This document shows, piece after piece, positions 219 to 11,563 of a stretch of 11,563 nt of DNA. The DNA comes from Bacteroidota bacterium (GTDB taxonomy: Bacteria; Bacteroidota; Bacteroidia; Chitinophagales; Chitinophagaceae). Below the pieces are notes generated by a model. The model saw nothing but the letters and a program-made list of their open reading frames with translations. It did not search any database and had not been told where the DNA came from. How positions within the stretch are numbered: position 1 is the first letter of the stretch; each line of letters opens with the position of its first letter. The stretch lies in contig JAEWJV010000590.1 of NCBI GenBank assembly GCA_023386395.1, positions 1 through 11,563 on the forward strand. Reading direction: 5' to 3'. The position numbers and the translations under genes are program-made.

Positions 219-1712
219 TTACATGTAATTCACTGCAACCGGGTTTACTACCGGCAATACAAACCTGAAAGCTGTGCCTTTTCCCGGTTCGCTCATTACT
301 TCAATTGTAGTTTGATGCAGCTCTAATATTTTCTTTACAATGGCAAGGCCAATGCCTATACCTTTTTTAGGCGAAGCTTCTTTTCCAAGCTGCTTATAAC
401 GTTCAAAAATATAAGCCTGGTCCTCAGGTGCAATGCCAATGCCGGTATCAGCAACCTGTACTTTAATCCCGGCATTTGTTCCTGATAACCGGATGGTGAT
501 ATCACCGCCATCAGGCGTGAACTTAAAAGCATTGTCCAACAAATTTTGAAATACCCTTTCCGTTAATGCAATATCAGCAAATACCCGTGGAAGATTTGAT
601 GGTGCCTGCATGTTTAAATGAATATTTCGTTCGTCAGCTTTTAACTGGTAGCTCATTAAAATATCGGAAGCAAGCTCGCTGATAAAAAATGCTTCTTTTT
701 CAGGTGTTACCAAATTGGCTTCCAGCTTGGCATATTGAAATAGCTGTTCAACAAGCCCTGATAATTTTTTGGAGCTGTCATGTACAACAGACAAATATTT
801 TTCTTTATCATTTTCTGAAAGCACATTTTTTTTCATCATCAATGTTTCCACGTATCCCTGCATGATGGATAGGGGAGTGCGCAGGTCGTGCGATACATTG
901 GCAATTAACTCCTGCCTGAATTTATCGGTGGCGGTTATTTTATCAAAATTATCCACGATCACATCCGCCATTTCATTAAACGTGGTGCTTAACATTCCCA
1001 AATCGCCTGAAGCATTTCCTTCAATGCGGGCAGAATAATCGCCTTCTTTAAAACGCTTTACTACCGAAGTAATTTTAGAAATGCTGCTTGTCATCAGAAA
1101 GAAGATAACTACACCCACTATTAATGCAACCAGCAATGCCGCAAAAAAAATATAAGTGCCAAGCCTGAAGTATAACTGGTTATTGATGGAGTTTAAAATC
1201 TCTTTTTGTTTTTCGCTTGCCAGCACCGCATACACATAACCTGTAAGCTTTCCGTTTTCATATACAGGTGCAGCAGAAAAAATGCTGGGTTCGCCTGGTT
1301 GCTTTGGATTATCGCCCATCGGGCGATGCATGGCATCGGCGGTAAGCCATTGCTTCACAGTATGAATATTTACATGATGCACCTGCACTGTTGTATCGGG
1401 CACAACATAATCGGTGATGTTGCCTGCCGTATCCAATAAATATACTTCCACACTTGGATTGGCAACCATGGTAGAATGTATGATGTCGTGCGTAACAGCA
1501 GTATCCGGTTTGCCGTTTTTAAGTGGCTGTGTAAAACTGGCAAGATGCTGCGCAATATCCCCGTATAATTCCTGGTGTGCAGTGGTAAAATACGATGTGG
1601 AGAAACGGGAGGCTATCAGCACAAACACAACACCCAATACAACAAGCAGTGCTGTGAATACGGCAGTGATCTTCCAGAATAATAAATTGCCTTTTATTTT
1701 TTTTGCAGGCAT
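219..1712 (-). CDS. Two-component sensor histidine kinase (HAMP, HisKA, HATPase_c)
   Basis: A 497-residue inner-membrane sensor kinase that autophosphorylates on histidine and should pass the phosphate to the response regulator encoded just upstream. Visible order: transmembrane helix 1 at about residues 13-35; an extracytoplasmic sensor domain at about 37-180 with a PDC/Cache-like look (strand pattern around VEVYLLDTAG and FSAAPVYENG); transmembrane helix 2 at about 186-208; a HAMP linker at about 208-262. The dimerisation/phosphoacceptor domain follows, with H275 in NVSHDLRTP. The ATPase domain has an N box at about 389-400 (QNLLDNAFKFTP), G1 DTGIGI at 422-427, F box FERY at 436-439 and G2 GIGIGLAI at 451-458, so it appears fully functional. 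The start at 1712 lies 38 bp after the regulator's stop, consistent with one operon. The ligand cannot be told from the sequence, and the sensor domain fold is inferred. Confidence 0.95.
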   Translation of the reverse strand: MPAKKIKGNLLFWKITAVFTALLVVLGVVFVLIASRFSTSYFTTAHQELYGDIAQHLASFTQPLKNGKPDTAVTHDIIHSTMVANPSVEVYLLDTAGNITDYVVPDTTVQVHHVNIHTVKQWLTADAMHRPMGDNPKQPGEPSIFSAAPVYENGKLTGYVYAVLASEKQKEILNSINNQLYFRLGTYIFFAALLVALIVGVVIFFLMTSSISKITSVVKRFKEGDYSARIEGNASGDLGMLSTTFNEMADVIVDNFDKITATDKFRQELIANVSHDLRTPLSIMQGYVETLMMKKNVLSENDKEKYLSVVHDSSKKLSGLVEQLFQYAKLEANLVTPEKEAFFISELASDILMSYQLKADERNIHLNMQAPSNLPRVFADIALTERVFQNLLDNAFKFTPDGGDITIRLSGTNAGIKVQVADTGIGIAPEDQAYIFERYKQLGKEASPKKGIGIGLAIVKKILELHQTTIEVMSEPGKGTAFRFVLPVVNPVAVNYM

Positions 1713-1750
1713 TGTATCATTTTTATAAACTGAGGTAAGCTACAGGCGAC

Positions 1751-2458
1751 TTACAATTCTTCATTAAACCTGTAACCAACGCCCCAGGTAGTTAAAATAT
1801 ATTTTGGATTGGAAACATCTTCTTCAATCTTTCCGCGTAAACGGTTAATGTGGCTATTCACCGTATGTTCATAGCCTTCAAAATCGTAGCCCCAAACAAG
1901 GTTTAATAAACGTTTGCGGCTGTAACTTTTACCGGGGTTGGATGCCAGCAATGCCATCAGTTCAAATTCTCTCGGTGAAAGTTCCACCCTCGTATTGTTG
2001 AGTGTAACTTTTCGTTTGTCCAAATCAATTTCCAGGCCGCCATACATTATAACAGCAGATGCCGGCGCTGCATCCTGCAACGCATCGCTGTCTTCTTTCC
2101 TGCGAAAAATGACTTTCACCCTTGCAATAAATTCCCTTACGCTGAAAGGTTTGGTGAGATAATCGTCAGCGCCTGTTTCAAGACCCATCACTTTATCAAT
2201 TTCTTCCGACTTTGCCGTAAGCATGAGAATAGGTGTAAGCCTGTCGGTTTGCCTTATCTTCCTGCAAATTTCCATGCCGTTAAGGCCGGGCAGCATAATA
2301 TCAAGAATAATTAGATCGAACCGCTCTTCTTTGGAAATTGTCAAACCTTTTTGGCCGTTAGGTTCAGCTATAATCCTGCAGCCCAGGTCGTAAAGATGTA
2401 TAGTGAGCAACTCCACAATGTTAGCGTCATCTTCTATTATCAAAACTTTTTTATCCAT
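1751..2458 (-). CDS. OmpR/PhoB-family response regulator
   Basis: A 235-residue cytoplasmic transcription factor, partner of the kinase that follows it. The receiver domain (about 1-120) has the acidic pair at E9-D10-D11, the phosphoacceptor D53 in LIILDIMLPG, the switch threonine T81 and the lysine K103 in LTKPF. All catalytic residues are present. After a linker, the C-terminal winged-helix DNA-binding domain (about 140-235) shows the family pattern LSPREFELMALL, the recognition-helix region EHTVNSHINRLRGKIE and the closing wing WGVGYRF. I chose the ATG at 2458 (MDKKVLIIEDD), not the in-frame ATG five codons upstream, because receiver domains start directly with the first strand. Regulator-then-kinase order with a 38-bp gap supports a single transcript. 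The target genes are not identifiable here. Confidence 0.95.
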   Translation of the reverse strand: MDKKVLIIEDDANIVELLTIHLYDLGCRIIAEPNGQKGLTISKEERFDLIILDIMLPGLNGMEICRKIRQTDRLTPILMLTAKSEEIDKVMGLETGADDYLTKPFSVREFIARVKVIFRRKEDSDALQDAAPASAVIMYGGLEIDLDKRKVTLNNTRVELSPREFELMALLASNPGKSYSRKRLLNLVWGYDFEGYEHTVNSHINRLRGKIEEDVSNPKYILTTWGVGYRFNEEL

Positions 2459-2792
2459 AAATATTACATGCACAAAGTTGGTGAATAAAATAAAGCAATA
2501 AGCGCCGTGATACTTTTGTTATAAACTATGCACGGGTGATGCGTTTATTGTTCAGGGAAGATCTCTTTCGTACCATGTTCATCTTTGCTTACCCACCGCC
2601 AAGATAGGACGAAGAAAGGATGGATTAGTTAAGGGTTTGATGGCGGCATAATGTACCTGGGCCTTGAAACTATACACCAGGAAAGCCTGCACAAGCACCA
2701 TACATAAAGCCGCCCTGCATACTTGCTTATTATGGGCTGTATAGCTATTTCATTGCCTGAATACAGGCCTTGCGTAACAAAAAAGCTTATAG
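2459..2792. other. Gene-free stretch upstream of the response regulator
   Basis: These 334 bases lie between the 124-residue gene and the response regulator, both on the minus strand, so the region should hold the promoter of the two-component operon. I could not pick out a convincing minus-strand TAnnTTTG element. A 40-codon open frame on the minus strand (2579-2701) has no recognisable protein character. No RNA gene, repeat or strong terminator is visible. Confidence 0.5.
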
Positions 2793-3370: not shown

Positions 3371-3805
3371 AGTATCTTTTTATGAAGCAAACATATTGAG
3401 CCAAACCAACAAAGTTCTTGATTTGAGATAAGAAACTACTTTCAGGAAATTTTTTCCGTGCGGCTTAATGTAGCAAAACAAAAGTTGATATGATGTATTG
3501 CTAAGCCCGCATTTTGTTAAAGTGCTTTATTGTACGCCATTATTTAATTTTTGTTTCTTCAAATCTTTTTGCTGCTAAATAAGTGACTATATGCAGGCAA
3601 CACCGGGCTTGCTGCTATGCTGGCTGAACTGCAAATTCTCATCTTTAGTAATGCTATCAGCTACAGTCCGGGCAGGACTTTCATTGTTCGGTTTTAGTGC
3701 ATATCTTCATCAATAGTTTTTGAATTGGGCTATCGTTTTGTGGGCTGAACGATATAAAATTCCAGCACAGCAAGCCCTAACGTAAGCTGCAATAATTCTA
3801 TCGCA
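3371..3805. other. Strand-switch intergenic region between divergent gene blocks
   Basis: These 435 bases separate the minus-strand block (1-3370) from the plus-strand block (3806 onward). No coding frame is supported. The distal half is occupied by a large inverted repeat (described separately) and an inner hairpin with arms AGTCC and GGACT in the 3660-3685 area. The sequence between the repeat and the hydrolase start (3778-3805) contains TAACGTAAGCTGCA, whose last ten bases recur inverted after the hydrolase gene. Promoters for both divergent directions must lie here, but I see no clean TAnnTTTG element. Confidence 0.6.
3605..3777. repeat. Large bulged inverted repeat, possible cassette-boundary element
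   Basis: The left arm is GGGCTTGCTG (3605-3614), then CTA, then TGCTGG (3618-3623). The right arm is CCAGCA (3762-3767) directly joined to CAGCAAGCCC (3768-3777). The two arms pair perfectly over 16 bases apart from the three-base bulge CTA in the left arm. The intervening 138 bases contain a smaller hairpin (AGTCC, loop GGGCA, GGACT). Long arms, an extrahelical bulge and a structured centre resemble folded recombination sites such as integron attC. They are also compatible with a repeat of the REP/BIME kind or an RNA structure. Confidence 0.6.
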
Positions 3806-5310
3806 ATGATTAAAATTTTTACTTTTTATCTCTTATTAATTTCAGTTTTATGTTCTGCTCAAACAGATACATCAAAACAAACTAATCAAGAAATAATTTT
3901 TCATGAATTCAAAATGAAAGCTCATACAGGCGATAGCATTGCATATAGTCTGTCTCAAGTCAATGTGCCGGAGAATAGGCTTTCGATAAATTCCAATACC
4001 ATTCAATTATCAATACTTAAACTAAAAGCGAAATCAAAAACACCGTCTTTCCCGGTTTTATTTCTTGCCGGTGGACCTGGCCAATCGGGAATTAATTATA
4101 TCAGGGAAGAGTATTTTCAAAAACTGATTTTTCAACTGCAGGAAGACCATGATATTATTTTACTTGACCAGCGTGGTTCTGGCAGGTCTTTGCCATCGTT
4201 GGTTTATAAAGTACCTGCTTCTGATAAAAAGAATATATTTCTATCCCAGGAAAATATTATTCAGGTAGCAAATCAGATTTCCCGTGCCGGGGCAGATACT
4301 TTTAAACAAAGAGGTATTGACATTAGAGGATACAATACCATTCAGAATGCAGATGATATAAATGATATACGAATTGCGTTAGGTGCAGCGAAAATCAATT
4401 TACTTGCTATAAGTTACGGAACGCATCTTGCTTTAGCGGCTGCAAGAAAATACCCTGACTTTATTGATGATATGGTGTTGATTGGTGTTTCAGGATTAAA
4501 CGATATGCATCATTTGCCTTTTACGTATGACAGGCAACTTCAAAAGATTTCTGATTTAGCTGCACAAGATACTGCTATCAACAAACAGGTGCCTGATATG
4601 ATAGCGTTATTAAAGAAAGTATTAACTAAGCTTAAGAAAAAGCCGATTTTTATACAAGTAAAAGATAAAAAGAGCAATCAGATGATTGATATACCTGTTG
4701 GCAAATTCGGGCTTCAAATGATTCTCAGGCTTGATGCAGGTGATTCTTATGACTTCGTTTATTTCCCCGCTCTGTTGTATGGTATAGAAAAAGGCAATTA
4801 TGATTTGTTAAAGGAGTATGTTGAAAAGCGGTATAATCAGTTTAACGGTGAATATACTTCAGCCATTGGTATAATGCGTACAGCCTCCGGAGCAACCAAA
4901 GAAAGGTATGCAGAAATAGAACAACAAGGTAAAACAGCTTTGTTGGGAAATGCAATGAACACACCTGACATTTATTCAAAAAATTATTTTGGAGATATAG
5001 ATTTGGGAGATGATTTTAGAAAATCTTTTGCAAGCAACATAAGAACATTATTTATCAGTGGTACGATGGACAGTAATACACCGCCTGCAAATGCAGAAAA
5101 AGTAAAAAAGCTATTCACAAATGGCTTTCATATTCTTGTTCAATACGCCGGGCATGAAGATATGTTGCCTGATGAGGGTGTTCAAAAGGAGATTGTAAAC
5201 TTTTATGAAAAGAATCAAATCGACTTAACTAACGTTTCACTTCCAATACCAAAATTTGAACCACCTCTTAATAAATAGACTTGCATTTGATGATTATAAC
5301 TGCAGCTTAC
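3782..5310. repeat. 10-bp inverted repeat bracketing the S33 hydrolase gene
   Basis: GTAAGCTGCA at 3782-3791 lies 14 bases before the hydrolase start, and its exact reverse complement TGCAGCTTAC lies at 5301-5310, 22 bases after the stop. The gene is therefore bracketed by a perfect 10-base inverted pair. The right copy is followed by AGGCGGTTTGGC, which looks like the beginning of another arm, but no matching closing arm is present before the next gene. Confidence 0.55.
3806..5278 (+). CDS. Secreted S33-type alpha/beta hydrolase (prolyl/tripeptidyl aminopeptidase-like)
   Basis: A 490-residue serine hydrolase. An N-terminal signal peptide (about residues 1-18, hydrophobic core FYLLLISVLC, cleavage likely after CSA) sends it to the periplasm or outside. 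The mature part shows the S33 layout: the oxyanion-hole segment FLAGGPGQSG at 87-96, DQRGSGRS at 121-128, the nucleophile elbow AISYGT with S203, an inserted helical cap at about 225-400, then ISGTMDSNTPP with D422 and YAGHEDM with H450. The S203-D422-H450 triad is complete. The C-terminal part resembles the TAP-like domain of secreted tripeptidyl aminopeptidases. Known members remove N-terminal proline or tripeptides, and some act on small esters, so the exact substrate is not deducible. It is the first gene on the plus-strand side and is bracketed by a 10-bp inverted repeat, suggesting a self-contained unit. Confidence 0.88.
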   Translation: MIKIFTFYLLLISVLCSAQTDTSKQTNQEIIFHEFKMKAHTGDSIAYSLSQVNVPENRLSINSNTIQLSILKLKAKSKTPSFPVLFLAGGPGQSGINYIREEYFQKLIFQLQEDHDIILLDQRGSGRSLPSLVYKVPASDKKNIFLSQENIIQVANQISRAGADTFKQRGIDIRGYNTIQNADDINDIRIALGAAKINLLAISYGTHLALAAARKYPDFIDDMVLIGVSGLNDMHHLPFTYDRQLQKISDLAAQDTAINKQVPDMIALLKKVLTKLKKKPIFIQVKDKKSNQMIDIPVGKFGLQMILRLDAGDSYDFVYFPALLYGIEKGNYDLLKEYVEKRYNQFNGEYTSAIGIMRTASGATKERYAEIEQQGKTALLGNAMNTPDIYSKNYFGDIDLGDDFRKSFASNIRTLFISGTMDSNTPPANAEKVKKLFTNGFHILVQYAGHEDMLPDEGVQKEIVNFYEKNQIDLTNVSLPIPKFEPPLNK

Positions 5311-5373
5311 AGGCGGTTTGGCAATATGGCGGGGCGACGAATATATTTTCAACTTTTAGTAACCAAACCTCAA

Positions 5374-5922
5374 ATGAAATCATTCTTGACAATTTTAGCT
5401 GTCGCTTATATGACAATTACATTTGGACAGACTTCCAATTTGGTTGATACAAAAAGAAGCCACAAGGGTTTCTCTGTAATCTTCATTGACTCTTTAAAGA
5501 TATTAGAAGTTATAGGAACTTACGTCACATCGAACCACACGGCTGGATACAGGCTGATTCTTGACAGCAACCAAACTTTCCAAACGATAGGGTTTGACTG
5601 TATAAGCAAGTCAACAGTAGACAGCGGTCAATGGAGTTTATTAAATAGAAAGACACTTTTGCTTAAGTCGGATAAGATTGTAAAAGCTTATGACTTTTTT
5701 AAACTTGAGAGTTATTATTTTATTATTCCACAATTAAGCAGACAAAAGTTTATAAAAGATTATATGTCTACGAAGGCTGAATTTCAAAATGCCAAGCCTT
5801 TCATCGTTGATGGAAAAATATACAGTGTTGACCTTATGATTGCCATCTGTCTTACCCAAAAATACTTTGCAAAAGAATTTAAGGACTTATCATCTGGTGC
5901 AAATATGCCGCTTAGCTTTTGA
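5374..5922 (+). CDS. Secreted hypothetical protein
   Basis: A 182-residue protein with a signal peptide (MKSFLTILAVAYMTITFGQT, cleavage probably around residue 18). The remainder has alternating polar and hydrophobic strands, with segments such as AGYRLILDSNQTF, SGQWSLLNRKTLLLKSD and DFFKLESYYFIIPQ. That pattern recalls small secreted Bacteroidota proteins with a beta-sandwich or lipocalin-like repeat of strand-turn-strand units. I do not recognise a family. The frame stays open up to an ATG at 5281, but that upstream part is basic and reads through the repeat-like arm after the hydrolase gene. The ATG at 5374 gives a proper signal peptide and is preferred. The stop codon overlaps the first base of the next repeat element. 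Function unknown. Confidence 0.7.
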   Translation: MKSFLTILAVAYMTITFGQTSNLVDTKRSHKGFSVIFIDSLKILEVIGTYVTSNHTAGYRLILDSNQTFQTIGFDCISKSTVDSGQWSLLNRKTLLLKSDKIVKAYDFFKLESYYFIIPQLSRQKFIKDYMSTKAEFQNAKPFIVDGKIYSVDLMIAICLTQKYFAKEFKDLSSGANMPLSF

Positions 5923-6017
5923 GCGCAGCGTGTTTGCGCCTTGCAACTTAAAATAGTAAAACTGCACAAAAAATTAGTATTATATAACATACATTAGCGA
6001 GTTAGCAGCAAGGCAAA
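5922..6017. repeat. Inverted-repeat boundary element, copy A
   Basis: GCCTTGC-AAC (5938-5947) pairs with GTT-AGCA-GCAAGGC (6001-6014) over ten bases with a four-base bulge AGCA in the right arm. The left flank (5922-5969) matches 10471-10518 at 39 of 48 positions. The right end TTAGCAGCAAGGCAAA (6002-6017) matches 10629-10644 at 14 of 16. The two loci therefore carry the same element with conserved ends and a centre of different length (96 against 174 bases overall). The element starts at the last base of the preceding gene's stop codon. Confidence 0.6.
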
Positions 6018-6067
6018 CCAACCGCTCAACCAACAGGCACGACAAAAATGATAGTGACAAACTTTAA

Positions 6068-6914
6068 ATGAAAAAAATACCCGTAAGACATATAAAAGAT
6101 TCTTTTGAAGACCGCTTTAGCATAAGAGCTATTGAGCCTTTGGTGGCGGAAGGAGATTTGATTCATGAACTTCACCGGCACAACTTTTACTTTGTTTTAT
6201 TTATTAAAAATGGCACAGGCGAACACGAAATAGATTTTATTAAGTATGAAGTGGACAACTACTCAGTTTTTTTTATCCGGCCAGGGCAAGCATCAATTAA
6301 AACTTGAAAAAGGTACTACCGGGTTTCTGCTCCAATTTACTTCCGGTTTTTATGCTCCCCGTGAAAACCCGGCCGGCGTGGTGTTACGGAAGGCCAGTAA
6401 TAAAAACCATTGCCATGTGACCACAGAACGATTTGAAAAAATTGGTTTGCAATTGCAGGTTATCTTACGGGAGTTTATACAAAAGCAAGACCGGTACAAA
6501 GAAGTTATTAAAGCCAGTTTAGACATTCTTTTCATTGAATTAGTGCGCGAAAGCCCCCACCCAAACGAGGTTCCTAACGAAACCAAACTTTATGCCCAGG
6601 AGCGTTTGGAAGAATTGCAGTATTTATTGGAAAAAAATATTCATACCAAAAAGCAGGTAAGTGAGTATGCAGCAATGTTGAATATGACGCCGTATCAACT
6701 GAATGCTATTACAAAATCATTATTGCAAAAAACGGTTTTGGAGCTTATAAGCGACCATATTATTTTAGAGGCTAAGAGACTACTTATTGCTACTGCCAAT
6801 CAGGTAAATCAGGTTGCCGATATGCTGGGTTATGAAGACCCTTCTTATTTTATACGCTATTTCAAAAAACAAACAGGAATAACTCCCGAGGCTTTTCGCC
6901 AAAATTTTAAATAA
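6068..6914 (+). pseudogene. AraC-family transcriptional regulator, frameshifted
   Basis: Two overlapping frames make up one AraC protein. The first, from the ATG at 6068, gives 79 residues of the cupin-like sensor domain (HRHNFYFVLFIKNGTGEHEI, then FFIRPGQ) and stops at 6305-6307. The second frame continues the same domain (HQLKLEKGTTGFLLQFTSGF) and runs to a TAA at 6912-6914. It ends with the classic AraC double helix-turn-helix, including QVADMLGYEDPSYFIRYFKK and GITPEAFR. Joined at about 6289-6291 the protein is about 281 residues, the usual length. The break lies in CAAGCATCAA. Loss of a CA dinucleotide (originally GCA CAT CAA) or one extra G would explain it. It may be a real mutation or a sequencing indel. 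The operator pair that starts one base after its stop suggests it controls the genes downstream. Confidence 0.85.
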
Positions 6915-6971
6915 GTCCTGTTCAACCTCAAGTCTGTCCTATAAGGCAGGCTATCCACGTAGATATTTTTG
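6915..6971 (+). promoter_or_regulatory. Predicted AraC operator (two direct repeats) and -7 promoter element for the outer-membrane gene
   Basis: GTCCTGTT at 6915-6922 and GTCCTATA at 6936-6943 are direct repeats 21 bases apart, that is two helical turns, as expected for the two helix-turn-helix motifs or two monomers of an AraC protein. TATTTTTG at 6964-6971 fits the Bacteroidota -7 consensus TAnnTTTG and begins 28 bases after the start of the second box. The same arrangement with identical spacing occurs before the dehydrogenase gene at 7702-7758. Binding by the adjacent AraC protein is inferred. Confidence 0.65.
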
Positions 6972-7009
6972 TGGTATTAATTTTTAAATCACTTCACAAA
7001 AATATTTAC

Positions 7010-7675
7010 ATGAAAAAGATTTATTCCTTATCACTTTTAATCGCTGTAGTATTCAGTACACAAAATTTGCGTGCCCAGGATGCAACGTTCAGTTTCAGGC
7101 CTAAAACAGTTTCTGCAGAAGAATTGGTTGGCGATAAACGACAATTTGTACAGCTTCTGGTAAACAAGGTTTTTGCGGAAAGGAAAAAAATTGGCTTGCT
7201 CTCGGTTTCGTCTTACGCTGCCGGTTACGAAGGCAAGTCTGTTGAGAATGAATTTCAAAACACAACACTTATTTATCATCACTTATTCAAGGGAATCAGT
7301 ATCAATTCCGGCGCAAGTTTTACTTCTGCAGAGGGCTTGAAAAATTTTGTGGGCCTGCAGTATATGTATCAGAGCAAAACGCTTTCGTTGATGTTTATGT
7401 CAAGTTATTATTTTACCAATAGCCATAAAATTTCCAATTTTCTCCTCATAGAATATACACCTGTGATAAATGAGAACTGGTTTATTTATTCACGCTTACA
7501 GTTACATTACAACCATGATTTGGAAAAAGGAAATCATTTTCGAAGCTATGCGTATAGCCGTTTGGGCTTAACCTGCAAATATTTCAGTTTTGGACTTGCA
7601 CACAATTATGACTGCTATAGTGCAAATAAGAATACAAAAAACAACTATGGCCCATTTGTAAAACTGACTTTATAA
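7010..7675 (+). CDS. Outer-membrane beta-barrel protein, uncharacterised
   Basis: A 221-residue exported protein. The signal peptide (about 1-23) ends in LRAQD, cleaved after LRA. The mature part is rich in alternating aromatic and small residues typical of barrel strands (GLQYMYQSKTLSLMFMSSYYF, split by short turns; NWFIYSRLQLHYNHDLE; YAYSRLGLTCKYFSFGLAHNY) and ends KLTL. Strand count is roughly eight. I chose the ATG at 7010 because it gives a canonical signal peptide. The frame is open from a GTG at 6971, but that codon lies inside the predicted -7 element, so it cannot be in the transcript start region. The gene follows the AraC regulator and has its own predicted operator. It might be a porin-like or lipid-handling partner of the dehydrogenase and flavoprotein downstream, which is an inference from position only. 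Confidence 0.72.
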   Translation: MKKIYSLSLLIAVVFSTQNLRAQDATFSFRPKTVSAEELVGDKRQFVQLLVNKVFAERKKIGLLSVSSYAAGYEGKSVENEFQNTTLIYHHLFKGISINSGASFTSAEGLKNFVGLQYMYQSKTLSLMFMSSYYFTNSHKISNFLLIEYTPVINENWFIYSRLQLHYNHDLEKGNHFRSYAYSRLGLTCKYFSFGLAHNYDCYSANKNTKNNYGPFVKLTL

Positions 7676-7701
7676 ACAGCATACACAAAAACTAAAAAAC
7701 A

Positions 7702-7758
7702 GTCCTGTTGAACTGGCCAAATGTCCTGTAAAGCGGCCTCTAAGTCAATGTAATTTTA
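7702..7758 (+). promoter_or_regulatory. Second predicted AraC operator and -7 element, before the dehydrogenase gene
   Basis: GTCCTGTT at 7702-7709 and GTCCTGTA at 7723-7730 repeat the 21-base spacing seen at 6915-6943. The bases after the second box are conserved as well (GTCCTrTAArGCrGsCTmT in both). TAATTTTA at 7751-7758 matches TAnnTTTG at 7 of 8 positions and again starts 28 bases after the second box. Two independent occurrences with equal geometry in front of two genes next to an AraC gene make a shared operator the simplest explanation. Confidence 0.65.
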
Positions 7759-7783
7759 CATCGTAATCATAAAAAACAATAAA

Positions 7784-8392
7784 ATGAACAATAAAAAAAG
7801 AATTATCATAGTGGGTGCATCAGGCACCATGGGAAGGTATTTAACCTCTGCGTTTGAAAAAGAGCACGAAGTAGTTAAAGTAGGTACGAAAAGCGGCGAC
7901 TACCAGGTAGATATAACTTCCACCGATGCTATTGAAAAATTTTACAAAGAAGTTGGTGCTTTTGATGCCTTGATTTCTACAGCCGGACCCACTTTTGTGG
8001 GCCCATGGAAAAATTTAACTGATAAAGAATTCAGAAAAGGCGTTGACGGTAAAATGATGGGGCAAATCAACCTGGTACTTATCGGTCAGCATTATATTAA
8101 ACCAAAAGGCTCTTTTACTTTAATTTCCGGGGCTTTGACTTACGAGCCGCAACTTTATTTTGCCAATGCCTCGGCCGCAAACGCAGCCGTAGAAGCGTTT
8201 GTAAGGGCAGCAGCCATTGAATTAGAGAATGGTATCCGTATCAATGCAGTAAGCCCCACTGTCATTGAAAATTCCCCACATTATTTCGCATATTTTCCGG
8301 GCGAAATTCCTACGACTATGAAACAGCTTGAATATGGTTTTCGTAAAAGCGTATTTGGCGCGAATACAGGACAAGTAATAACACTTCACTAA
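7784..8392 (+). CDS. Short-chain dehydrogenase/reductase, degenerate catalytic site
   Basis: A 202-residue cytoplasmic SDR of the short type. The Rossmann cofactor motif GASGTMG lies at 11-17, a DIT cofactor-contact segment at 43-45, and STAGP at 65-69 replaces the usual NNAG. S115 in LISGAL is in the place of the catalytic serine. The canonical YxxxK is missing: around 125-133 the sequence is YFANASAAN, with no lysine at the +4 position. Such Y/K-less SDRs form a known subset annotated simply as short-chain dehydrogenases, and their activity is unclear. They may bind NAD(P) without classical hydride transfer. The predicted operator upstream places it under the AraC regulator. A small membrane-protein gene follows after 29 bp and is probably co-transcribed. 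Confidence 0.85.
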   Translation: MNNKKRIIIVGASGTMGRYLTSAFEKEHEVVKVGTKSGDYQVDITSTDAIEKFYKEVGAFDALISTAGPTFVGPWKNLTDKEFRKGVDGKMMGQINLVLIGQHYIKPKGSFTLISGALTYEPQLYFANASAANAAVEAFVRAAAIELENGIRINAVSPTVIENSPHYFAYFPGEIPTTMKQLEYGFRKSVFGANTGQVITLH

Positions 8393-8421
8393 TTGCAGGT
8401 ATAATATTAAAAGAAAACAAC

Positions 8422-8646
8422 ATGAAATCTAAGATGAAGCTAATAGCATCGCTGAAAATCTGGATAATAATTTTTCCGTCCATTACATTGTTTTACTACC
8501 TTTTTGGGGAAGCATTATCTATTTTTCCATTGTATGTAAGAACGCTTATACTAACACTTATATTAGTTCCCTGGATAGTATTTGCAGGCGTTCCGTTTGT
8601 TGATTGGGTTATTAAAAAAACTTCATCAGCTAATGAGGAAAAATAA
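8422..8646 (+). CDS. Small two-helix membrane protein, hypothetical
   Basis: A 74-residue protein with two predicted transmembrane segments, about residues 11-30 (KIWIIIFPSITLFYYLFG) and 38-62 (centred on TLILTLILVPWIVF), and a short charged tail KKTSSANEEK. There is no signal peptide cleavage site and no cysteine or histidine pair suggesting a cofactor. It begins 29 bp after the SDR stop and very likely belongs to the same transcript. I do not recognise a family. Small two-helix proteins of this kind are often annotated as hypothetical beside SDR or monooxygenase genes. A second possible start is the methionine at residue 5. Confidence 0.65.
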   Translation: MKSKMKLIASLKIWIIIFPSITLFYYLFGEALSIFPLYVRTLILTLILVPWIVFAGVPFVDWVIKKTSSANEEK

Positions 8647-8761
8647 AACAATTGAAAGAGATAAAACCACATCATTATCAGGCCAAATATTTATAGGCAC
8701 AATAGAAATGTATTACTGTTTTTCTTTGTAATTAATTTAGCTAACACTCAAAAATAATCGT

Positions 8762-9676
8762 ATGAGCGGTAAAAGACATTTTGATGCAATAATTGCCGGG
8801 GGCAGTTATTCAGGGCTTTCAGCAGCAATGGCATTAGGCAGGGCTTTAACAAAAGTGCTGATTATTGACAGCGGAAAACCTTGTAACAGGCAAACTCCAC
8901 ACTCGCATAATTTTTTAACGCAGGACGGAAAAACACCAAAAGAAATTTCGACACTTGCCAGGCAACAAGTGTCGATGTATGACACAGTTGAATTTCTTAA
9001 TGATTTGGCAACAAACGCAAGCAAAACCGAAACCGGTTTTGAAATTCAAACATTATCGGGAGAGATATTCACTGCTGCAAAATTGATTTTTGCTACAGGC
9101 ATTAAGGATAAAATGCCCGATATCAAAGGCTTTTCAGAATGTTGGGGCATTTCTGTTTTACATTGCCCTTACTGCCACGGATATGAAGTGAAAAATGAAG
9201 CAACAGGAATTTTGGGCAATGGCGAATACGGATTTGAATTTTCGAAACTTATTTCAAACTGGACAAAAGATTTGACACTATTTACAAATGGAAAATCAAT
9301 CCTGGCTCCCGAACAAACAGCAAAGCTTGAAAAGTATCACATTAAAACTGTAGAAAAAGAAATTGAAGAATTAGGCCACATCAACGGGCAACTTCAAAAT
9401 ATTATTTTTAAAGATGGTTCGAAGAAAACAGTTAAAGCCATTTATACACGGCTTCCATTTGAGCAACATTGCCAGATACCTGAAAACTTAGGCTGTGAAC
9501 TGACCGAAGACGGATACATAAAAATTGACGCTTCCAACAAAACAACAGTAAAAGGCATTTTTGCTTGTGGCGATAACGCAACCCAGATGCGAACAGTTGC
9601 AAATGCGGTAGCCATGGGAACAACGACAGGAATAATGGTAAACAAAGAACTTATTGAAGCAAAATTTATCAATTAA
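8762..9676 (+). CDS. NAD(P)/FAD-dependent oxidoreductase, thioredoxin-reductase-like, with CPYC disulfide
   Basis: A 304-residue cytoplasmic flavoprotein of the low-molecular-weight thioredoxin reductase fold. The FAD motif AGGSYSGLSAAMALGRA starts at residue 12, and the second FAD contact GIFACGDNATQ is near 264-274. The NADPH domain carries GNGEYG at 152-157. The redox-active pair is C135-P-Y-C138 followed by HGYE, not the CAT/VC of true thioredoxin reductases. Flavoproteins with CxxCHG[YWF]E include dithiol oxidases such as the GliT/HlmI type and many unnamed bacterial members, so the partner may be a small dithiol or peroxide-linked substrate and not thioredoxin. The gene sits 115 bp after the small membrane protein. 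A weak -7-like TTTCTTTG is at 8721-8728, and no GTCCT boxes are seen there. It may be co-transcribed with or independent of the SDR. Confidence 0.9.
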   Translation: MSGKRHFDAIIAGGSYSGLSAAMALGRALTKVLIIDSGKPCNRQTPHSHNFLTQDGKTPKEISTLARQQVSMYDTVEFLNDLATNASKTETGFEIQTLSGEIFTAAKLIFATGIKDKMPDIKGFSECWGISVLHCPYCHGYEVKNEATGILGNGEYGFEFSKLISNWTKDLTLFTNGKSILAPEQTAKLEKYHIKTVEKEIEELGHINGQLQNIIFKDGSKKTVKAIYTRLPFEQHCQIPENLGCELTEDGYIKIDASNKTTVKGIFACGDNATQMRTVANAVAMGTTTGIMVNKELIEAKFIN

Positions 9677-9732
9677 ATAAGTGAAATAAATTCAGAACTT
9701 TTAAACGCTAATGAATAGTGGGTTTACTTCGC

Positions 9733-9779
9733 AGCAGAGTCTTCGCTAAAGCATTAATGCAAGGCCACGAGGCCCTGCT
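9733..9779. other. Potential multi-stem hairpin in the intergenic region
   Basis: AGCAG (9733-9737) can pair with CTGCT (9775-9779). Between them lie the perfect palindrome GCATTAATGC (9751-9760) and GGCC-ACGA-GGCC (9763-9774). Together they can draw a small three-way-junction shape. It lies between the flavoprotein stop and the lipoprotein start and could be a terminator-like RNA structure or a boundary repeat. There is no U-run, so a standard intrinsic terminator is unlikely. Confidence 0.35.
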
Positions 9780-9818
9780 ATGACAGATACCTTGAAAATT
9801 ATAAAACCAAAAACTAAC

Positions 9819-10279
9819 ATGATAAAAACCTTAATTACATCTTTTGCCCTGGTCGCATTATTAAGCTGTGCACATAGATCAGACCCGATAACTTCAACCG
9901 CTTCTGCAAACGTGACTCATTGACAGCCGCATTTCTTGCGGGATGGAATAACAAAGATTCAACTGCCATTAGTAAGGCAATAGCTGAGAATGCAGTATTA
10001 ATGACCGACTCACTCGTCTATAGGGGCCTTTCCGAAATTTCGGATAATTGGATAAGCGGAGGCGTGAAAGTCGTAAGCAACCTAAAGACTTCATTTATTA
10101 TTAAAGAGACCGACATTAAAATTGCTTATTCGGCTGGTACATATACCCATGACTTGACTCCACCCGGCGGGGAAGTTTTTAAGATAAAGGGTAATTATAA
10201 TTTCGCATGGACGAAACAAACCAGTGGTGAATGGAAATTGAGGTTTATTCATATAGAAGATTTGAGCAGTCGGCGTTAA
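9819..10279 (+). pseudogene. NTF2-like (SnoaL/DUF4440-type) lipoprotein, frameshifted
   Basis: From the ATG at 9819 the frame encodes a lipoprotein signal peptide (MIKTLITSFALVALLSC, lipobox LLSC, then a TSTASANV linker) and stops at a TGA at 9921-9923 after 34 residues. The next frame is open from before this point to the TAA at 10277-10279 and carries an NTF2-like domain. It starts DSLTAAFLAGWNNKDSTAIS, with the strand VLMTDSLVYRG and the closing EWKLRFIHIE. The two parts fit as one protein of about 153 residues if a single base, for example an A in the AAA run near 9908-9910, was lost. Members of this fold act as small enzymes or ligand-binding proteins, and no function can be assigned. 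A TTG at 9920 could in principle start the second part alone, but it would lack both export signal and a normal start. Confidence 0.72.
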
Positions 10280-10309
10280 GGTAAACCAATTTGAATTTCG
10301 CAGTACGGC

Positions 10310-10411
10310 AGCCAACAATGGTCACTGCTGCACAACCTTAATTTTACGTCGCAACAGGGCCTGTGCTGTTGTTGGTGTTCGTGTGTGTGCCGTTGTTGTG
10401 TCTTGTGACCA
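10310..10411. repeat. Inverted-repeat boundary element, partial
   Basis: AGCCAACA (10310-10317) opens the segment, as in the element at 11301. TGGTCAC (10319-10325) pairs with GTGACCA (10405-10411). An inner pair CAACAG / CTGTTG lies near 10352-10371. It lies in the 405-base gap between the lipoprotein (ending 10279) and the YcxB-like gene (starting 10685). No coding frame in this gap is supported. It is instead filled by this element, the copy B repeat and a third AGCCAACA at 10534. Confidence 0.4.
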
Positions 10412-10470
10412 ACAACCGTAGCGCGGGAAAGGCGTGATGCCCTCATCTGGAATATCCCACTTGTTTTTAC

Positions 10471-10644
10471 AGCGTAGCGTACTTATGCCTTGCAGCTTAA
10501 AATAGTAAATCCGTACAAGTACTCAATGTATGAAGCCAACACTGCATGCTTGCGCTATCATGAGCTTTTATTTTTATCTTCAATTTTCATATTTCAGCTA
10601 ATACCACACTTTCAGCAATGCTAAGCCATTGGCAGAAAGGCAAA
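10471..10644. repeat. Inverted-repeat boundary element, copy B
   Basis: The second copy of the element at 5922-6017. The left end (10471-10518) matches at 39 of 48 bases, with eight of the nine differences being transitions. The right end (10629-10644) matches at 14 of 16. GCCTT (10487-10491) pairs with AAGGC (10637-10641). The centre is about 78 bases longer than in copy A and contains AGCCAACA at 10534-10541, suggesting a second element is nested inside or joined to it. Confidence 0.55.
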
Positions 10645-10684
10645 TTGACAACGCCTAAATTCAAACTATCTATTAATCATTGTA

Positions 10685-11290
10685 ATGGAAATCGTAATAA
10701 ATAATAAAACTGCATCCGAACTTATACTACAGACAAATAAAATTCGCTGGGCAGTTTATAAACAAAGATTAATATTTTCTTTTTTACTTGTCTTTCTATG
10801 TGGACTAATCTTCTTTTTTTCCGGACGTTCGCAGGGTTATGACAGTTTTGAATCAGATTATAAGTACAATAATGATTTTACCATTAGTTATGTTCACACA
10901 ACGCAATACAATTATCACATCCTGTTAGGGTTGGGCATTGCCTTTATGCTATTCTCAATTTATCTCGCCATTATTTACCTCATTTTACAAAAGAAAAAAT
11001 TCTTTAAGGCAGTAAATAAGGTTGCTTCCAGGCATGAAAGCGTGTCTGACATTTATGCTTTAAAAATTACTGACGAAGGTATCTATTATAAAGACGCTGA
11101 AATTATGCGTGAAGAAAAGTGGATTGTATTTTCTACATACAAGATGTATAAAAATAATTTAATGCTATTTCGTGACAATTTTTATATAAGCGCTTTAGTG
11201 ATTGGCAAAAGTCAATTATCAGATGCTGATTTTAATGAGCTATTAATTTTTATAAAAAAGATATTACCTGAAAAAGGATTTCTTAAATAA
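10685..11290 (+). CDS. YcxB-like membrane protein
   Basis: A 201-residue inner-membrane protein. A short cytoplasmic N-terminus is followed by a transmembrane helix at about 28-46 (RLIFSFLLVFLCGLIFFFSG region), an outside loop at about 48-76, and a second helix at about 77-102 (ILLGLGIAFMLFSIYLAIIY). The cytoplasmic C-terminal domain (about 105-201) has the pattern ITDEGIYYKDAEIMREEKW then FSTYKMYKNNLMLF. The strand order (turn DEGI, W-I-V-F, K-x-Y-K-N-N-L-x-L) is that of the YcxB-like C-terminal domain of unknown function. The usual pattern in the family is two helices then this domain, which fits. No operon partner is close: it stands alone between two inverted-repeat elements. Function unknown. 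Family call moderately sure. Confidence 0.7.
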   Translation: MEIVINNKTASELILQTNKIRWAVYKQRLIFSFLLVFLCGLIFFFSGRSQGYDSFESDYKYNNDFTISYVHTTQYNYHILLGLGIAFMLFSIYLAIIYLILQKKKFFKAVNKVASRHESVSDIYALKITDEGIYYKDAEIMREEKWIVFSTYKMYKNNLMLFRDNFYISALVIGKSQLSDADFNELLIFIKKILPEKGFLK

Positions 11291-11301
11291 AAAGCACTAC
11301 A

Positions 11302-11433
11302 GCCAACATCAGTTTCATGCAATAGCGGCTTTTGAACATTGGCTAAACTGAATATCTTTATTCAGCTTTTGTGCAATCGTGAAGCGACAAATCAATGAAT
11401 ACCGCTACTGCATAAAGCTGTTAACCGTTAGGC
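11302..11433. repeat. attC-like inverted repeat between two genes
   Basis: The outer boxes are GCC-AAC (11302-11307) and GTTAGGC (11427-11433), which pair with one unpaired A. GTTAGGC fits the integron R-box consensus GTTRRRY. Inside, ATGCAATAGCGG (11317-11328) pairs with CCGCTACTGCAT (11402-11413) at 11 of 12 positions. The total length of 132 bases lies within the range of integron attC sites. The left box lacks one base of RYYYAAC, so it is attC-like and not a strict match. The next gene starts seven bases after the right box. Confidence 0.55.
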
Positions 11434-11439
11434 GCAACA

Positions 11440-11563
11440 ATGGAGACCGAGGAACAAATATTACCAAAAGAGAATTTAGCCCGAGCCATTCGTTCTGGAA
11501 AAGAGTTTGGCTGGCGTCAGCAAGACTTTATAAGTACAGTTCTTGCGGCTCAATCGGCAGGAC
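11440..11563 (+). CDS. Hypothetical protein, N-terminal part (runs off the window)
   Basis: From the ATG at 11440 the frame is open for 41 codons to the window edge. It begins METEEQILPKENLARAIRSG and goes on with KEFGWRQQDFISTVLAAQSAG. The start is an amphipathic helix-rich segment with no signal peptide or membrane segment, so the product is probably cytoplasmic. I do not recognise a family from this much sequence. It lies seven bases after the GTTAGGC box of the attC-like repeat, a distance typical of cassette genes. The reality of the gene rests on the open frame, the charged, protein-like composition and the close fit to the boundary element. Confidence 0.6.
   Translation, partial: METEEQILPKENLARAIRSGKEFGWRQQDFISTVLAAQSAG

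Follow-up and report, generated by a model that had tools for sequence, protein, structure and literature searches.

The question raised by this locus is whether a run of genes on a Bacteroidota contig is organized as an array of mobile cassettes. The locus is contig JAEWJV010000590.1 of a bacterium placed in Chitinophagaceae (assembly GCA_023386395.1), whose whole 11,563-nt stretch is here called the window, and in which the initial annotation had described, from 3605 to 11440, single-gene units parted by five bulged inverted repeats resembling integron attC sites: 3605-3777 (S1), 5922-6017 (S2), 10310-10411 (S3), 10471-10644 (S4) and 11302-11433 (S5). Our results indicate that S5 is quite probably a folded recombination site of an integron-like gene-cassette system of Bacteroidota, constituting a cassette together with the gene at 10685-11290. 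The cassette idea was thus right in kind and is documented for one site of the window; the wider family to which this site belongs is the main finding, and the array within the window is mostly unproven. The evidence of cassette mobility comes from relatives of the site family, and not from the 10685-11290 unit.

S5, delimited by model matches at 11300..11442 on the plus strand, displays a left core GCCAAC, a stem formed by CAGTTTCATGCAATAGCGG and CCGCTACTGCATAAAGCTG, a variable centre of ~73 nt and a right core AACCGTTAGGCGCAA. Set against the integron cores RYYYAAC...GTTRRRY, the right GTTAGGC fits and the left GCCAAC is one base short. When folds were computed as single-strand DNA against 200 dinucleotide shuffles, 11300-11435 gave z=-3.0 on the bottom strand (1/200 shuffles) and z=-2.0 on the top strand (7/200). 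Two covariance models were used, neither of which includes the window: R1, built from 15 phage-contig sites, matched S5 over its full length with 48.4 bits (E=3.4e-9), and R2, built from 67 phage and plasmid sites, gave 67.6 bits (E=4.6e-15). The control maxima were 17.0 bits for R1 (99 loci, 931 kb, leaving aside locus L017) and 19.3 bits for R2 (98 loci, 929 kb, default filters); L017, found among the R1 controls with matches of 52.9, 47.3 and 20.2 bits, is itself an array and was for this reason omitted from the R2 control set. With filters off, R2 scored S1 at 20.7 bits (E=0.0024), to be read against a control maximum obtained with default filters, and R1 did not match it; S2, S3 and S4 were covered by none of the 22 R2 rows at E<=10 with filters off, nor by R1. 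Compared with the controls, these scores place S5 in the family, S1 at its margin and S2 to S4 outside of it, and on sequence grounds S5 is clearly a member of an attC-like site family of Bacteroidota.

The family was recovered from viral contigs by pattern scans. A first scan with the motif TAACGTTAGCNGCAA returned at least 120 stretches, which were then tested for a complementary upstream arm; at first just two of the 121 motif matches, L067 and L130, were identified as sites, with arms like those of S5, and L017 was recognised later. A second scan, requiring the ends GCTTATAACA and AACGTTRGC 90-120 nt apart, gave 27 loci, 21 of which were judged to share one architecture; L144, L147, L150, L151, L154 and L159 were set aside as chance matches and L139, L143, L145, L148, L155 and L157 as near-duplicates, leaving 15 for R1. 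The pattern constrains the site ends only and leaves the stem free, and the MAFFT alignment of the 15 sites supports a single long helix: pairing holds in 91.9% of cells, both sides vary in 16 of the 20 pairs, and covariation reaches 0.649, against 0.165 in shuffled alignments and at most 0.119 when the partner is slid. The cores of the phage sites are GTTAGC on one side and GCT-TAT-AAC on the other, and not GTTRRRY/RYYYAAC. A distant blastn search with one site led to plasmids of Chryseobacterium sp. SNU WT5 and Adhaeribacter radiodurans, in addition to four weak matches.

These sites occur in arrays. Each of the 15 viral records, which were chosen for holding one site, carries 2-11 sites, amounting to 80 rows at E<=0.01 that include the 15 training sites of R1; two rows are opposite-strand readings of the same sites, and of the remaining 78, 77 are oriented like most sites in their record. 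With R2 at E<=0.001, 10 of 12 named plasmid and phage records, all searched whole, gave matches. The SNU WT5 plasmid carries seven sites on one strand behind a tyrosine recombinase annotated as 'site-specific tyrosine recombinase/integron integrase', and its cargo includes RidA, MORN, metallophosphoesterase, GLPGLI, SRPBCC, ChaN-like, restriction and MazEF genes; several of its sites (L160, 2630-2810 and 5694-5870) have one common ~200-bp block behind them, GTTGGGAAAAATCGCCC...GCCGAGCTGGCC, which may be a cassette without a gene. Four R2 sites are present on Emticicia oligotrophica pEMTOL01, and nine on Myroides odoratimimus p63039 (L179, NZ_CP013691.1), beside GNAT, OXA, MYO-1, AadS and CatB genes. 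The clinical resistance genes OXA, MYO-1, AadS and CatB adjoin R2 sites at 6264-9110, 12328-12465 and 15670-15970 and, given this position, look like cassettes of the Bacteroidota site system. Further, the isolated Flavobacterium phages mumin6-1 and lillamy9-1 hold 10 and 12 R2 sites, respectively; their site-bounded arrays (L174 and L175) contain several annotated DNA methyltransferase genes, comparable to the phage clusters of attC sites lacking integrases (CALINs) presented in parts of PMC9892861. On plasmids of Rufibacter tibetensis and Pontibacter kalidii, a 484-residue recombinase is followed by single genes on the same strand, shorter attC-like spacers and an IS110 insertion sequence.

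Differences between close relatives fall largely at the cores. The phage contigs L130 and L139 share three blocks that are 97.5%, 99.8% and 95.9% identical; between GCTTATAACG and TAACTCCCC L130 carries three cassettes and L139 two, unrelated to them. Between GCTTATAACGTTTTGCA and TAACTCCCCGCTAAG, L130 has three genes in ~1.76 kb, encoding proteins of 63 aa, 230 aa (methyltransferase-like) and 187 aa (exonuclease-like, both labels by motif), and L139 two unrelated genes in ~0.73 kb. When mumin6-1 was compared with lillamy9-1, six of the eight merged breakpoints lay within 20 nt of a core, where 1.0 was expected (P=5e-5). The plasmids of SNU WT5 and C. oryzae carry integrases that are 95% alike, followed by a stretch identical at 100 of 107 bp up to ACAAGTT; precisely behind GTT they part into GGGAAAAATCG and AGCGGTAAGCG, with only 13 of the next 60 bases alike. 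This is the pattern expected from different first cassettes entering one attI, and it points to a putative attI-like end. These comparisons also bear on the idea of a dispersed repeat of the miniature inverted-repeat transposable element (MITE) or repetitive extragenic palindrome (REP) type that hitch-hikes with genes and has no cassette mechanism: the copies are indeed many, palindromic and intergenic, but whole genes plus a site differ between close relatives, and the arms vary among copies while pairing is kept, so that the copies are not recent duplicates. We consider such a repeat scarcely credible as an explanation.

Orientation and gene ends bear on another proposal, according to which the sites would be terminator-like or regulatory hairpins conserved for expression rather than recombination. 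Among 14 distinct phage loci with an upstream open reading frame (ORF), 10 have the stop of that ORF no more than 10 nt from the site edge, including four in which it falls inside the core, and passages of PMC9892861 state that attC sites are thought to hold weak terminators. Such a function is nevertheless at odds with the breakpoints at cores between near-identical phages and between two plasmids, with a variable centre of ~70 nt, and with gene direction: genes run with the site, as read on the model strand, in the window and in the SNU WT5, Emticicia and Myroides plasmids, and against it in the phages. We regard the terminator proposal as very improbable. In phage loci, the following ORF can start within the site; in L146, L149 and L171, some ORFs start in, or immediately after, the site before them and translate the core of that site in frame, with motifs such as AVIS or AVMP close to the N-terminus. 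The site may thus lend the next cassette its start codon in some phage loci.

Furthermore, the cores are targets of other elements. In-silico removal of three group II introns, two in SNU WT5 and one in Adhaeribacter (L160 and L161), restored GGTAAC, GATAAC and GCTAAC, and the joined flanks of a fourth, in Persicobacter (L164), give TTCAAC; hence, four introns from three plasmids were joined, with a TAAC core in three cases and CAAC in one. At another SNU WT5 site, an IS110 gene lies within 40 nt behind GGTAACA and parts it from the remainder of the site. IS1111-attC elements insert likewise at the core of attC sites. Group IIC-attC introns are described in PMC7923331 as targeting the R'' core on the bottom strand of attC (TTGT/T); the introns found here lie in the site core as well and may be comparable to them.

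The recombinases seen with some of these arrays resemble the Xer proteins. That of SNU WT5 displays, by eye, the usual catalytic motifs and a 77-residue N-terminal extension, and scores 221.5 bits on NF040815 (XerA type, cut-off 220). NF040815 ranked first among the NCBIfam models for each of the five scanned recombinases, although only those of SNU WT5 and Flagellimonas (238.5) pass the cut-off. On TIGR02249, the integron-integrase model (cut-off 265), the scores were 206.7 for SNU WT5, 199.4 for Rufibacter, 193.5 for Pontibacter, 149.9 for phage G047 and 205.9 for Flagellimonas, versus 394.4 for a Shewanella integron integrase. In addition, all eight Bacteroidota and phage recombinases aligned lack 28+3+9 residues of the Shewanella enzyme within one region, which by our reading of the alignment appear to include the I2 helix; cassette capture is said to require this helix, which is reported from no other protein (PMC7790495, in part). 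A search with the recombinase P0005 gave at least 8000 candidates at E<=1e-20, the named ones noticed among the best 120 being Flavobacteriales, and one weak partial relative in the viral contigs searched. Separately, we observed in the records W03, W04, W07 and W10 recombinases of 308-324 residues, 7 of 10 with an R2 site 188-205 bp ahead; IS91 transposases accompany those of Myroides (W10) and C. oryzae (W07) as partners.

The same data address whether the sites could be ordinary attC sites moved by a canonical IntI, i.e., a classical integron or CALIN found in Bacteroidota by chance. Their architecture is attC-like, and the right core of S5 fits GTTRRRY. Moreover, IntI genes from the Bacteroidetes/Chlorobi group (PMC2426708) and integrons from Bacteroidota (PMC9668308) are mentioned in passages of these works; a survey of IntI and attC gives, in the section concerned, one complete integron within Bacteroidetes proper, that of Salinibacter ruber M1 (PMC9024848); and IntI1 was active on five of six phage sites, one being an attC from a Polaribacter phage (PMC9892861, in part). 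Against this stand the low TIGR02249 scores and the residues missing from all eight recombinases, the deviating phage cores, and the lack of any R2 match at E<=1 in a Shewanella phage with an integron integrase or in P12002L, the Polaribacter phage whose attC is active with IntI1. The identification of the sites as classical attC of an IntI integron was accordingly rejected on the recombinase scores and the alignment, and we retain it only as an unlikely account.

The relatives show part of how the proposed cassette system is organized: sites part single or few genes that share one orientation, close relatives are distinguished by whole cassettes with breakpoints at AAC/GTT cores, and an array can begin directly behind a tyrosine recombinase at an attI-like end. 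In the process proposed here, the bottom strand of a site such as S5 would extrude as a hairpin, with its GTTAGGC/GCCAAC ends making up the recombination core, and a XerA-like tyrosine recombinase would cut this core, inserting or excising the cassette. As the window encodes no such enzyme, the recombinase would be supplied in trans.

Several observations weigh against this interpretation. Some concern the exchanges: of the L130/L139 breakpoints, only the left one of L139 (7801) lies inside a called site (7794-7936), the other three displaying the core motif at places uncalled by R1, and a further 237-bp difference between these contigs, at 4215, is away from any site; of the eight merged mumin6-1 breakpoints, one is 27 nt and another 690 nt from the nearest called core, the latter with GTTATAAGC at the break. 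Others concern the partnership between recombinase and sites, which we infer, and in which enzyme and sites are loosely linked. PF00589 (Phage_integrase) was found in 1 of the 15 viral records, that of phage G047, beside its eight-site array; 3 of the 12 named records (Adhaeribacter, mumin6-1 and lillamy9-1) have sites and no P0005 homologue at E<=1e-20; and Cellulophaga phage Ingeline_1 and Polaribacter phage Freya_1 encode a related integrase, and R2 matched nothing at E<=1 in those parts of them that were searched. The full Rufibacter and Pontibacter records gave no R2 match at E<=0.001, their excerpts scoring weakly (31.7 and 18.8 bits), and R1 found nothing at E<=0.1 in P12002L, a phage that R2 likewise left unmatched at E<=1, as it did the Shewanella phage. 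The E-values, moreover, come from home-made covariance models and are rough. Finally, a single solid site was found within the window, and the initial annotation's statement that the window holds no tyrosine recombinase was borne out by family searches among 10 window proteins.

As for the remaining repeats of the window, the inverted repeats at 3605-3777 and 11302-11433 are present, but the five as a set are not above chance. A gapped inverted-repeat scan found 13 repeats with scores >=30, where 60 block shuffles of the window averaged 10.0, and two with scores >=36, where the shuffles averaged 1.17. The outer arms of S1, GGGCTTGCTG and CAGCAAGCCC, pair 10/10, and 3600-3790 folds on the bottom strand with z=-1.7 (8/200 shuffles). 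The folds of 5918-6028 (z=-0.2 and -0.5), 10308-10417 (z=-0.7 and -1.3) and 10470-10655 (bottom strand, z=+1.3) were unremarkable, so that on their own structure just S5 and, weakly, S1 are unusual; nor did the repeats stand out when 140-nt fold windows were slid along the sequence. S1, taken as 3595..3797 (plus strand, 203 nt) with TAACGTAAGCTGCAA at its right end, may be an older or divergent site in view of its marginal R2 score, whereas S3 (10310..10411, plus strand) is unsupported by either model or fold. The notion that all five repeats form one family was rejected, as S2, S3 and S4 are unmatched by the models. At the right end of S2, GTTAGCAGCAA (6001..6011, plus strand) matches the right-core consensus of the family, GTTRGCNGCAA, whose single occurrence in the window compares with 0.09 expected and with at least one match in 16 of 200 shuffles.

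A direct repeat that the initial annotation had not reported overlaps S2 and S4. Its copies at 5890..5969 and 10443..10518, both on the plus strand, are 75% identical over 80 columns (E=1e-9, blastn self-comparison). The first covers the 3' end of the 5374-5922 gene and the left part of S2; the second covers the left part of S4 and, given that the repeat starts within that gene end, seems to retain the remnant of a similar one. A motif common to S2 and S4 gave one match in a scan of the genome collection, seemingly coding in a Clostridia contig and judged to be chance, and its shorter form gave none in viral contigs; the motif GGTTTGGC was likewise without matches in the viral contigs searched. 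The top-scoring simple inverted repeat of the window, at 6956-7012 (18-nt arms, 89%), lies just ahead of the ORF starting at 7010 and has no sign of a cassette site.

The genes of the window complete this picture. The presumed cassette gene (10685..11290, plus strand) is an ORF that stops ~10 nt ahead of S5 and encodes what looks, by eye, like a membrane protein; from 242 candidates scored, drawn from 5.77 billion proteins, it has four homologues at E<=1e-3, no Pfam family above cut-off, and no relative among the five viral-contig stretches that a search for it returned, 'YcxB-like' being a label of the initial annotation only. Behind the right core of S5, an ATG closely follows and appears, from its position, to start the next gene (11440..11563, plus strand), which runs off the window end. 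To the left of the repeat region lies a two-component pair of a histidine kinase and a response regulator (219..2473, minus strand); the kinase (222-1712, minus strand) is 93% identical to one of Parafilimonas terrae and indicates Chitinophagaceae. Downstream of S1 follow an alpha/beta hydrolase (3806..5278, plus strand; Abhydrolase_1, E=4.6e-22) and a protein of no Pfam family, of secreted type by eye (5374..5922, plus strand), whose final 33 nt are within the direct repeat. The claim that all genes from 3806 on are on the plus strand holds for those taken as real, the minus-strand ORFs being short and overlapping them. The description as single-gene units throughout fails at 6068-10279, where a frameshifted AraC gene, an unknown protein, an SDR enzyme, a small ORF, an FAD oxidoreductase and a DUF4440 protein follow one another with no recovered site in between; the frameshift splits the AraC-family regulator (6068-6914) into two overlapping ORFs, 6068-6307 and 6246-6914. 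Searches of the window gave no Rfam match at gathering threshold and no tRNA. Plasmid searches gave four records with only short matches, in-gene or unannotated, for 3500-11490 and none for 5900-6060.

This setting raises the possibility that S5 is a lone relic, a cassette site captured once and now immobile in an ordinary chromosome, which is compatible with our explanation of the site itself. Four of the five claimed sites are weak or missing in the models, the window has no recombinase, and a frameshifted AraC gene lies nearby. Decay would erode the stem and right core, yet in S5 both are intact, and the cassette gene is open and very rare, as exchanged genes should be. We regard a lone relic as conceivable, though somewhat doubtful. 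Apart from S5 and its cassette gene, the stretch 3605-11300 amounts at most to a decayed array with ordinary genes in between. The proposal of an uncharacterised attC-like cassette system of Bacteroidota is strongly supported by the arrays of the relatives, their core-bounded exchange, the recombinase heading some arrays and the introns in cores, and in the window itself by S5 only.

Placed among known systems, the arrays resemble integrons in their one-orientation units of gene plus palindromic site, their AAC/GTT cores, core-bounded differences and group II introns in cores, and, in the Bacteroidota relatives, in a putative attI-like end behind a tyrosine recombinase. They differ in that the Bacteroidota recombinases lack the IntI-specific insertion, score below the integron-integrase cut-off and are co-transcribed with the cassettes in SNU WT5, Rufibacter and Pontibacter, and in that the phage sites have GTTAGC and GCT-TAT-AAC cores and cassette genes reversed relative to the site. 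The tandem, mobile units of usually one ORF plus attC that characterize integrons were found in the relatives, and the window has one cassette-like unit. The Xer proteins XerA, XerC and XerD are close by the NF040815 matches, but the enzymes described here are longer at the N-terminus, by ~77 aa in Chryseobacterium and ~210 aa in Rufibacter and Pontibacter, and lie at the head of cassette arrays.

Phage CALINs, as presented in parts of PMC9892861, likewise have their attC-like sites placed among small phage genes and DNA methyltransferases, and one such phage has a Bacteroidota host. There, however, 17 CALINs were found in 10,705 genomes, whereas here arrays occur in all 15 site-selected viral records and in two isolated Flavobacterium phages, and P12002L was matched by neither R1 nor R2. 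A 2026 paper describes, in the passages cited, the homology-free integration of aph(3')-IVb with a 140 bp attC-like 3' flank at a fixed chromosomal place in Riemerella anatipestifer; its authors suggest a fold-dependent site-specific mechanism, which they call not fully elucidated (PMC13148043). No enzyme or site family is named in those passages, and the likeness is one of description rather than sequence; the resistance genes of Myroides p63039 nonetheless do adjoin R2 sites. Phage attC clusters and a similar integration in Riemerella are already published; full-text searches of open-licence papers brought up no description of such a cassette system of Bacteroidota.

More broadly, Bacteroidota and their phages might share a second integron lineage, with folded attC-like sites, Xer-type recombinases without I2, its own attI, and parasites of its own such as group II introns and IS110; its genes would range from phage methyltransferases to clinical resistance genes (MYO-1, OXA and AadS of Myroides), the cassette of the window being a chromosomal member; we hold this view with even confidence for and against. 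If the arrays are active, they would constitute a cassette economy of the phylum's own across chromosomes, plasmids and phages, one that IntI-based software would not call complete. They would also provide a test of the standing question on I2, as recombinases without a helix said to be needed for capture (PMC7790495, in the passage cited), and could account for the way in which resistance genes integrate without homology in Riemerella (PMC13148043).

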